DNA of 64,000 nucleotides from Polyangiaceae bacterium (GTDB taxonomy: Bacteria; Myxococcota_A; Polyangia; Polyangiales; Polyangiaceae), in assembly GCA_023150915.1 (NCBI GenBank), contig JAKLKA010000003.1, forward strand, positions 1 through 64,000. Reading direction: 5' to 3'. Shown here piece after piece: positions 33,791 to 50,837 of this stretch. The position numbers were made by a program, and so were the translations under genes. Positions within the stretch are counted from its first letter, which is position 1, and the number at the start of each line of letters is the position of its first letter. Under the pieces are notes generated by a model. That model made no database searches, had not been told where the DNA came from, and saw nothing but the letters and a program-made list of their open reading frames with translations.

Positions 33791-34918
33791 TCAACGCAAG
33801 GCTGACCGATCGCCGGCGAAGTGGTGGAGCAGGTCCGCCATGGTCGCCGCCCGAGCCACGTCTTCCAGCCCGATGAGACCGATTGTCCCCTGGGGGCCAC
33901 GCACCGCCAGGGGGCGGCCCCCGCGTTCGATCAGCTGGGTCCGCACCTCGGACAGGGGTTCCTCGACCCCCACTTCGACCACGTCGCGGTTCATGACCCC
34001 CGCGACGAAGGTCAGGGGGCCGAGCTTCCGAACCGCATCGAGGATCTCTTCCCGGCCCAGGGTGCCCACCAGGCGCTCGCCCAGCACCACGGCGTAGTAC
34101 GGCTGCGACGACCGCAGCGCGTGCGCCAGCGCGTGCGCCAGCATGTCGCCCGGCTCCAGGACGATCGCCCGAGCGTCGACCGCGTCGGCCGCGCGAAGGC
34201 CTGCCAGCGATGCCATCACCTTGGCGGTGGTGCGCTCTTGAGCCGCCCCCAGAAACACGAACACGCCGATCGCCACCAGTACGACGTTGCCGCTCATCAG
34301 GCCGAACGCCGCCAGCCCAGCCGCCAGGAACTGGCCCACCGTGGCCGCGATGCTGGTGGCGCGCAGCTTCCCCAAGAAGAAGGTGAGCACCGCGCGCAGA
34401 ACACGCCCGCCGTCCATCGGCAGAGCCGGGATCATGTTGAACACCGCCAGCGCGAGGTTGGCCGCGGTGAGGGCCGCCACCAGAGTCGCCGGCGCCGGCG
34501 GCGCCATCAGTGCACGCACGAAGCCCCCGTCGGAGAGCCAGACCGGCCCAACCACCACCCGGGCGCCCACCACCAGCAAGACAGCCAGAATGACGTTCAC
34601 CAGCGGGCCCGCCACGGCTATCAGCAGCTCGTGCAGCGCGGTCTTCGGCTCTCGCCCCAGGCGCGCGACCCCGCCGATGGGCAGCAGCAAGATCTCGCGA
34701 ACCGAAACCCCCAGGCGCTGCGCCACCAGGCTGTGCCCCAGCTCGTGCAGTGCGACGCAAGCGAAGAGCAGGCACACCAAGAGCGCGCCGAACAGCGCTC
34801 CCCGCGTGCCGTGCGAGAGCCCCCACTCCATCGCACCCAGCGCCACCACGAACAAGAACGTGACGTGCACGCGAATCGCGATCCCGCTCACGGTGGCGAC
34901 GCGCCAGGACAGCTTCAT
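33791..34918 (-). CDS. Site-2 protease (M50) with C-terminal CBS pair
   Basis: The product has 375 residues. About six transmembrane segments carry the zinc motif 'HELGHSL' at 58-62 and the third-ligand motif 'NMIPALPMDGGRVL' near 160. The C-terminal ~130 residues form two CBS domains ('VVLGERLVGTLGREEIL' and 'GRPLAVRGPQGTIGLI'). This matches the Rip3/MJ0392-type S2P peptidases with cytosolic CBS regulation by nucleotides. They cleave anti-sigma factors or other membrane substrates; the anti-sigma-like protein at 43.5 kb is a possible but unlinked target. No PDZ domain is present. Confidence 0.9.
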   Translation of the reverse strand: MKLSWRVATVSGIAIRVHVTFLFVVALGAMEWGLSHGTRGALFGALLVCLLFACVALHELGHSLVAQRLGVSVREILLLPIGGVARLGREPKTALHELLIAVAGPLVNVILAVLLVVGARVVVGPVWLSDGGFVRALMAPPAPATLVAALTAANLALAVFNMIPALPMDGGRVLRAVLTFFLGKLRATSIAATVGQFLAAGLAAFGLMSGNVVLVAIGVFVFLGAAQERTTAKVMASLAGLRAADAVDARAIVLEPGDMLAHALAHALRSSQPYYAVVLGERLVGTLGREEILDAVRKLGPLTFVAGVMNRDVVEVGVEEPLSEVRTQLIERGGRPLAVRGPQGTIGLIGLEDVARAATMADLLHHFAGDRSALR

Positions 34919-42829: not shown

Positions 42830-42969
42830 ACCGCATTGAGTTACGCACACTTACCCGACCCAGCTTAACGTCGCGGGCGGGTGCGGCATTCGCCCTTCGA
42901 GTGGCCCAGCACGTCTGCCCCAACGTTTTCGTCACCGGCGCGCCCCCCAGCGATGACAGGCTCGGGGCC

Positions 42970-43530
42970 GTGTCGCTCGAGCACGAGCTCATCTCCCGCG
43001 CGCTGGACGGCGACGGCCGCGCCTTCGCGGGGTTGGTCGAGCCGCACTTGCCGGTGCTCTACCGCATCGCCGCGCGCGCCTGCGGCGATCGGGCCTTGGC
43101 CGAAGACGCCGTACAAGAGGCGCTGACCTTGGCCTTCGAGCGCCTCTCGGGGTACGAGCCGGGCACGTCGTTTCGCGCCTTCCTTGCCGCCTTCGCGGTG
43201 CGTCGCGCGCAGACGCTGCTCCGGGGTGAGCGCCGCCGGCGAACGCGTGAAGACGCCTCCGACGTGCCACCCTCGCTGCCAAACCCAGCCGAGCTCGCCC
43301 GCGCCCTCCAAGCCGCCCAGAGGGTGCGCGACGCACTGGCCACCCTGCCCGAGAAGCGACGCGCCGTGGCCATGCTGCGGCTCGACGCCGAGCTGTCGTA
43401 CGCCGAGATCGCCCAGGCCGTGGGCACGACCGAAGGCTCGGCGCGGGTGCTGGTGCACATGGCGCTGAAAGAGCTTCGACAGCAGCTTGCCGACCTCGTA
43501 CGAGAAGAGGAAACTTCGGAGGAGCGATGA
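42970..43530 (+). CDS. ECF-type RNA polymerase sigma factor
   Basis: The product has 186 residues with sigma region 2 ('RAFAGLVEPHLPVLYRIA', 'AEDAVQEALTLAFE', 'FRAFLAAFAVRRAQ') and region 4 ('LRLDAELSYAEIAQAVGTTEGSARVLVHMALKEL'). I chose the GTG at 42970 because region 2 homology begins there; a GTG at 42901 would add 23 residues without homology. The stop overlaps the start of the anti-sigma-like gene (ATGA). The third gene of the row encodes a CpxP-like periplasmic protein, so this may be a CnrYXH-like stress module. Confidence 0.9.
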   Translation: MSLEHELISRALDGDGRAFAGLVEPHLPVLYRIAARACGDRALAEDAVQEALTLAFERLSGYEPGTSFRAFLAAFAVRRAQTLLRGERRRRTREDASDVPPSLPNPAELARALQAAQRVRDALATLPEKRRAVAMLRLDAELSYAEIAQAVGTTEGSARVLVHMALKELRQQLADLVREEETSEER

Positions 43531-49743: not shown

Positions 49744-49814
49744 GAAATCCCTCGGGACCTCCGCAGCTTACGGCACGGCCTCGGGCGGCCGTCACAGAAA
49801 TCCTTTCGGCCTCG

Positions 49815-50837
49815 ATGACGGCCCAGGATCATCGCATGGCCATGCCCGTCAGCGCCGACCGCGGAAACCTCCTCGCTGCCCCCGAGCTCCGGTCGGGCCT
49901 GGTGCGGTTCGTGCGCGGGCGGGTCCCCGAGTCGGACGTCGAAGACGTGGTGCAGGCCACGCTGGCCGACGCTTTCGCCGCCCGCGAAGCCCCGTCCGAA
50001 GCCGAAGAGCTGCGGCGCTGGGTGTTCGGCATCGCGAAGAACAAGATCGTCGACGTTCACCGCAAGGGCGGGCGCGAGCTGCCAAAAGAAGGCGTGGGCG
50101 ACGAGGCCTCTGCGGAGAGCGCTCCGATGAGCGCGCGCGATCTCTTGCGGTGGGCCGAGACCGAGCTCCCCGAGGCGGAGGGTGCCCAGAGCACGCTGGA
50201 GTGGATGCTGCGCGAGGGCGACGGCGAGAAGCTCGAGCACATCGCCGAAGAGGCTCAGGTTCCCGCTCCGCGCGTGCGACAGCGGGTGTCGCGGATGCGG
50301 AAGTACTTCCGCTCGCGCTGGGCGGCGCAGCTGGCTGCTGCCGCGACCCTGGCCATCGTCGGGCTGGCGATCTGGACCTGGCTGGCCAGCCGCGACAAGC
50401 CCAAGCCCGAAGAGATTGCCCGCGAGGTGCCCCCGGACGAGCGGGCGCGAGAGCTCCGCCGCATCGCCTTGGAGCGCTGCCAGGCGCGGGACTTCGCGCC
50501 GTGCCTCGAAGGGCTCGACCGTGCCAGGGCCATCGATCCCGTCGGGGACGAAGCGCAGGCCATTCAGGAGGCGCGGGCCGCCGCCGCCCGCGGTCAGGCT
50601 CCAGCACCGAGCGCGGCTCCAGCGCCCGAGCCCGCGCCCAGCGCCGCGCCCCCGGTGAAGCGCCTGCCGCCGGACTCGAAGGGTAGCCTCGAACCAGCGC
50701 CCACGACCCGGCCCCCACCGAGCGACGTCAAGAAGATGGCACCCGAGAAGGGCTCGTCCAACGACTTCCCCCAGGCCCCGGCGCCGCAGAAGAAGCCCAA
50801 GGCCGCAGCGCCGGACTTCGGCGGCTCGTCCAAGTGA
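49815..50837 (+). CDS. ECF-type sigma factor fused to a transmembrane helix and Pro-rich tail
   Basis: The product has 340 residues. Residues ~20-170 form an ECF sigma factor: region 2 with 'DVEDVVQATLADAFAARE' and 'LRRWVFGIAKNKIVDVHRK', then region 4 with 'EHIAEEAQVPAPRVRQRVSRMRKYF'. Directly after region 4 comes a transmembrane helix (about 170-191), then a ~60-residue helical part with two cysteines ('ERCQARDFAPCLEGL') and a Pro/Ala-rich tail. Thus the DNA-binding part would be tied to the membrane. No anti-sigma gene is adjacent, so the fused domain may be the regulator. ATGs at 49836 and 49842 are alternative starts. Confidence 0.82.
   Translation: MTAQDHRMAMPVSADRGNLLAAPELRSGLVRFVRGRVPESDVEDVVQATLADAFAAREAPSEAEELRRWVFGIAKNKIVDVHRKGGRELPKEGVGDEASAESAPMSARDLLRWAETELPEAEGAQSTLEWMLREGDGEKLEHIAEEAQVPAPRVRQRVSRMRKYFRSRWAAQLAAAATLAIVGLAIWTWLASRDKPKPEEIAREVPPDERARELRRIALERCQARDFAPCLEGLDRARAIDPVGDEAQAIQEARAAAARGQAPAPSAAPAPEPAPSAAPPVKRLPPDSKGSLEPAPTTRPPPSDVKKMAPEKGSSNDFPQAPAPQKKPKAAAPDFGGSSK

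Follow-up and report, generated by a model that had tools for sequence, protein, structure and literature searches.

The open reading frame at 49815-50837 (+) of the window (i.e., the whole 64,000-nt stretch of Polyangiaceae bacterium DNA analyzed here, the source assembly of which amounts to 8.0 Mb in 295 contigs) is a single unbroken frame of 340 aa that comprises sigma regions 2 and 4, a transmembrane (TM) segment and an exported part, and its product is rather likely to be an autoregulated one-component membrane-tethered ECF sigma factor that serves an envelope regulon and is probably released by intramembrane proteolysis. ECF sigma factors are normally soluble and sense the outside through a separate anti-sigma protein; here, the sensor, the tether and the transcription factor are apparently merged in one conserved protein without an anti-sigma domain, which thus looks like a one-protein sensor coupling the cell envelope to gene expression. 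The architecture, its conservation, the promoter and the regulon were worked out in silico, and the mechanism is proposed on that basis. Since a promoter and some five targets per species can be predicted, the switch-on of TM-fused ECF sigma factors would become directly testable, and several uncharacterized exported myxobacterial proteins gain a first functional context.

Architecture and start of the tethered sigma factor

The original prediction of a complete region 2 and region 4, followed directly by a TM helix and by an exported part with a cysteine pair and a Pro/Ala-rich tail, was borne out in all of these elements (Table 1), the start codon having probably been placed too far upstream. 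Region 2 is matched by the Pfam Sigma70_r2 model above the cut-off (residues 28-87), while region 4 is divergent, scoring only E 0.34 with Sigma70_r4, and is nevertheless covered by full-length ECF models that reach residue 166-167 (SigZ, E 1e-10; the sigma70-ECF superfamily, 2.8e-6). It is also the best-conserved portion of the tethered-sigma family, in which the block TLEWMLREGDGEKLEHIAEEAQVPAPRVRQRVSRMRKxFRxRW recurs, and the two regions together have a dN/dS of 0.03-0.06 among three congeners. The presence of regions 2 and 4 alone, without regions 1 or 3, and of a bipartite ECF promoter before the gene itself (the latter on sequence evidence only) is what is expected of an ECF (group 4) sigma factor. 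An AlphaFold2 model built from 8 sequences was confident for the region 2 helices and uncertain for region 4 and the overall packing (pTM 0.28), and a Foldseek search with this model returned sigma factors as the top matches, none of them at E below 0.001.

The hydrophobic helix, as judged by hydropathy, starts 0-3 residues past region 4 in 30/30 aligned homologues, and the junction is spanned by a single continuous helix (residues 151-193) in the AlphaFold2 model, where confidence is low. As the N side of the TM helix is Arg-rich, the predicted topology is hence N-in/C-out. The TM sequence drifts among the three congeners with hydrophobicity retained (dN/dS about 0.3-0.8). Beyond it lies the exported hairpin, modelled as helices 207-223, 227-240 and 248-261 (pLDDT about 87-93 over residues 211-260), whose dN/dS of 0.06-0.11 in the same comparison shows, by this measure, that it is under purifying selection, and a tail that stays under a pLDDT of about 45 from residue 271 onwards and is under relaxed selection (dN/dS about 0.4). 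Exactly two cysteines are found in the exported part of 21/30 members, these being the members that carry the hairpin motif C-x7-C-x-x-x-LD (one of them with a longer spacer); the remaining 9/30 have neither cysteines nor the hairpin, and, because these nine members do without it, the hairpin is, on this evidence, not essential to the basic mechanism. In two of the nine (L027 and L028), the hairpin and the Pro-rich tail are replaced by another exported domain, a non-Pro-rich C-terminus that appears beta-rich by eye, which suggests that the exported part is swappable within the family.

Concerning the start codon, ATG 49815 falls within the conserved promoter's -10 element, and this upstream ATG is shifted out of frame by a 1-nt insertion in G001, a sister species, with the MAMP... 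beginning retained; because of this overlap and this shift, the start assumed originally seems to be too far upstream, and the true one is probably ATG 49836, which gives 333 aa rather than 340.

Table 1. Positions of the features discussed (residue numbers of the sigma regions, TM helix, hairpin and cysteines follow the 340-aa frame).
Feature	Position	Strand	Remarks
Putative -35 element, GTCACAG	49791..49797	+	putative autoregulatory ECF-type promoter
Putative -10 element, CGATG (consensus CGA[T/C])	49813..49817	+	16 nt after GTCACA; overlaps ATG 49815
Putative Shine-Dalgarno, AGGA	49825..49828	+	7 nt before ATG 49836; read from sequence
Probable corrected CDS, TM-tethered ECF sigma factor	49836..50837	+	333 aa plus stop
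Sigma region 2	49884..50084	+	residues 24-90; Pfam PF04542, E 1.2e-6; dN/dS 0.03-0.05
Sigma region 4	50133..50321	+	residues 107-169, C-terminal end RKYFRSRW; dN/dS 0.03-0.06
Transmembrane helix	50322..50387	+	residues 170-191, continuous with region 4; hydropathy
Exported helical hairpin, TPR-like	50430..50600	+	residues 206-262; contains C222/C230
Cysteine pair C222/C230	50478..50504 (codons 50478-50480 and 50502-50504)	+	
Exported tail, Pro/Ala/Ser/Lys-rich	50601..50834	+	predicted disordered
M50 peptidase with CBS domain (33.8 kb gene)	33791-34918	-	
Predicted target 1, exported 277-aa protein	G000:C224:36640; L107, L132		
Predicted target 2, C39-like plus HExxH lipoprotein	G000:C219:32474; L136, L233		
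Predicted target 3, second HExxH lipoprotein	G000:C220:88256; L241, L243		
Predicted target 4, exported 221-aa protein	G000:C7:28157; L245; G002:C45		G002:C45 by site sequence only

Promoter and predicted regulon

The ECF-type promoter GTCACA-N16-CGA that precedes the gene in the window (49791-49817) seems to be a property of the family, as GTCAC is found upstream of 37/38 family entries at a near-constant distance to the gene, and the strict pattern GTCAC[AG]-N16-CG[AT][TCA] is found upstream of 31/38, whereas the surrounding DNA has a background of 0.045 per 600 nt (a few of the 38 entries are repeat copies of genes already in the set, so that not all are independent). From this, the sigma factor is inferred to activate its own gene. 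At two loci (L102 and L104), back-to-back elements lie upstream of the sigma gene, i.e., one control region serves both the sigma gene and a transcript that diverges from it and in L104 encodes a YkuD L,D-transpeptidase.

In the three congeneric species, the element precedes the sigma gene and four orthologous genes for exported proteins, two of which have HExxH motifs (Table 1), and it also stands before the gene of the 277-aa protein in three further genera (G022, G024 and G213). The latter protein (L124:1525-2355 (+), G000:C224), which is predicted as a target in four genera or more, has a conserved motif, LCSNDQIDCGS, and gave no match in Pfam, NCBIfam or PDB sequence searches. In other genera, non-self sites lie before genes for, among others, YkuD (divergent from sigma), C39_2, DUF3160, HExxH lipoproteins and, in two genera, DUF4846. 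Altogether, the tethered sigma factor is predicted to drive a limited set of genes whose products are exported proteins and lipoproteins, in many cases resembling peptidases or hydrolases.

When the pattern GTCACACTY-N13-CGA was searched for in 12 further genomes, 36 sites were found versus 6 for the reversed control, and a control pattern with the spacing off by one gave 9 sites, none of them at the sigma gene. Motif counts as a proof of specificity had to be dropped, however, since the rates are similar with or without the sigma gene (36 sites in about 132 Mb of sigma-bearing genomes versus 22 in about 94 Mb of sigma-lacking ones, which is not clearly higher), and only the placement of the sites differs: 7/22 non-self sites in the sigma-bearing genomes stand before genes for exported proteins versus 0/20 of those examined in sigma-lacking relatives (one-sided Fisher p about 0.006), the sigma-lacking set being 16 genomes of the same family in which no copy of the sigma gene was found at E 1e-15.

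Proposed mechanism, known systems and rival explanations

In the mechanism put forward, cytoplasmic regions 2 and 4 would recognize the GTCACA-N16-CGA promoter, and the C-terminus would span the inner membrane once, with the hairpin (in which C222 and C230 probably form a disulfide) and the disordered Pro-rich tail facing the periplasm, where either of the two may sense an envelope signal. The tether itself most likely holds the sigma factor off promoters, since region 4 joins the TM segment without a linker and with no anti-sigma domain between them, and, with a tether that probably inhibits, activation would most likely come about by regulated intramembrane proteolysis, in which the envelope signal leads to a cut within the TM segment or close to it. 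Such a cleavage would set an active soluble sigma factor free, which would then act on its own gene and on the other genes of the predicted regulon. This linkerless join, together with the analogy to IutY (PMC8999054) and Pro-sigmaK (PMC11486902), makes proteolytic release plausible. A more far-reaching version is tentative and on balance doubtful: a receptor-type sigma factor in which the TM helix, continuous with the DNA-reading helix of region 4, is the inhibitory element, with no anti-sigma protein or domain involved, and in which periplasmic sensing and RNA polymerase reprogramming reside in one polypeptide, possibly transcribing in the membrane, for an exported-peptidase regulon.

Among known TM-fused ECF sigma factors, IutY of Pseudomonas putida (ECF243, of the iron-starvation type), activated proteolytically by Prc and RseP (PMC8999054), likewise has a C-terminal membrane-spanning exported part and no separate anti-sigma factor; in IutY, however, the fused extension is itself a membrane-bound anti-sigma factor that takes part in iron-uptake signalling, whereas the tethered sigma factor joins region 4 to the TM helix directly and has exported peptidase-like proteins as predicted targets, gave no Pfam match to a FecR-like anti-sigma domain up to E 10, and had no conserved receptor neighbor at the loci examined that would resemble the TonB-receptor context of ECF243. 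Groups ECF48/52/53 combine a zinc finger with a TM segment (PMC8999054, PMC5826349). ECF52, found only in Actinobacteria (e.g., SCO4117 of Streptomyces coelicolor) and with proteolytic activation proposed and positive autoregulation suggested (PMC5826349), shares the C-terminal TM segment and the Pro-rich exported extension, but differs in having a zinc-finger (anti-sigma-like) domain before the TM segment and a carbohydrate-binding module; in the tethered sigma factor, there is no zinc finger between region 4 and the TM helix (a gap of 0-3 residues, no pre-TM Cys in the protein of the window and no Pfam match), and the tail, predicted to be disordered, has no Pfam match to a carbohydrate-binding module. 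ECF41 sigma factors (-35 TGTCACA, -10 CGTC, spacer 16 +/- 1 and a soluble extension; PMC3426412) are similar in the lack of an anti-sigma gene, the C-terminal regulatory extension, the -35 element and spacing, and the small regulon, yet the -10 element here is CGA rather than CGTC, and a TM segment with an exported part stands in place of the SnoaL-type soluble extension. Pro-sigmaK of Bacillus subtilis, which is membrane-held and freed by SpoIVFB, an S2P with a CBS domain (PMC11486902), is a non-ECF sigma factor with an N-terminal pro-sequence as the tether, in contrast to the C-terminal TM segment of the present one. Two myxobacterial groups with Sorangium cellulosum examples, ECF220 and ECF276, are listed among ECFs with regulatory extensions (PMC8999054), and the family described here may or may not belong to either of them. 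Compared with the other ECFs above, and unless it proves to belong to ECF220 or ECF276, it would appear new in having neither an anti-sigma nor a zinc-finger domain and in its different promoter, extension and targets.

The rival that deserves most weight, while still being unlikely, is transcription at the membrane without release, whereby the tethered sigma factor would recruit RNA polymerase in a CadC/ToxR-like manner and the exported part would modulate it. A single TM segment with an exported part is indeed what CadC/ToxR-type one-component regulators have, a TM sequence that drifts as long as it stays hydrophobic is expected of a simple anchor, and no conserved protease partner was seen at the loci compared; however, with the end of the recognition helix only 0-3 residues from the TM segment (30/30), the -35 DNA would be pressed against the bilayer, and for the TM-fused ECFs known so far, activation by proteolysis has been either proposed or shown (PMC8999054). 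Somewhat less probable still is that a different, soluble ECF sigma factor reads the GTCACA-N16-CGA promoters, the tethered protein being just one of its targets: about 44 further Sigma70_r2 genes are available in the genome for such a role, and TGTCACA is also the -35 element of ECF41-type sigma factors, though with another -10 (PMC3426412), but the element stands before the tethered sigma gene in nearly all genomes, and well-placed sites before exported-protein genes are seen only in genomes with the tethered sigma factor.

That the protein is a non-working sigma factor, i.e., a decoy or anti-activator held at the membrane, which would bind to core RNA polymerase or to promoters but start no transcription, would fit the poor match of region 4 to its Pfam model and is nevertheless quite improbable given the strong purifying selection on regions 2 and 4 and the promoter conserved before its own gene and the exported-protein genes. 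As for an artefact, the possibility that the TM segment and tail come from another gene through a frameshift or assembly error (an unrecognized frameshift before the helix being among the findings that the original prediction had named as fatal to itself) was looked for and can be dismissed with near certainty, since the same fusion is seen in 30 members with open frames in independent assemblies, and since selection persists past the junction into the hairpin with its low dN/dS. The preferred reading remains a tethered sigma factor that is probably set free by proteolysis.

Neighborhood and distribution

The sigma gene is flanked in the window by genes for an enoyl-CoA hydratase and a repair protein of the AlkD type, with no adjoining anti-sigma gene, as noted initially, and no neighbor besides sigma itself recurs in most of the 20 loci compared. 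An exported alpha/beta hydrolase adjoins the sigma gene in 5/20 loci (L089, L092, L099, L100 and L105); these neighboring hydrolases carry extra cysteines, and in a hydrolase copy elsewhere (L181) the ATG is preceded, at 201 nt, by a promoter element. The hydrolase was considered as an anti-sigma factor or regulator and set aside, because, going by the L181 element, it looks like a target.

The M50 gene, suggested from the outset as a possible unlinked partner, stays a candidate protease, because its S2P (M50) plus CBS architecture is the one described for SpoIVFB; nothing singles it out, however, among the about ten M50 loci of the window's genome. Its distance to the sigma gene is similar only in two congeners, as general synteny, and it was not found in the sigma flanks fetched for other genera; as a linked partner it was therefore dropped.

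Homologues of the tethered sigma factor were found in 31/59 relatives (including MAGs of Polyangiaceae/Myxococcales) at E 1e-5, some weak region-2-only matches among them, and, at E 1e-15, in 69/289 genomes of the class, which all belong to the order of the window and represent three of its families; when 377 genomes were drawn from across the phylum, 30 matches came up, every one in the same order. One relative (G032) has several diverged copies with in-frame stops (at C82, C466 and C447), which are perhaps decaying paralogues. Within the window's own genome, 45 Sigma70_r2 genes are present, and a TM segment was seen in 0/43 of the others (43 of 44 scanned). One other ECF sigma factor, ordinary and soluble, with both Sigma70_r2 and Sigma70_r4 exceeding the Pfam cut-offs, is encoded at 42901-43527 (+), about 6 kb upstream of the tethered one.
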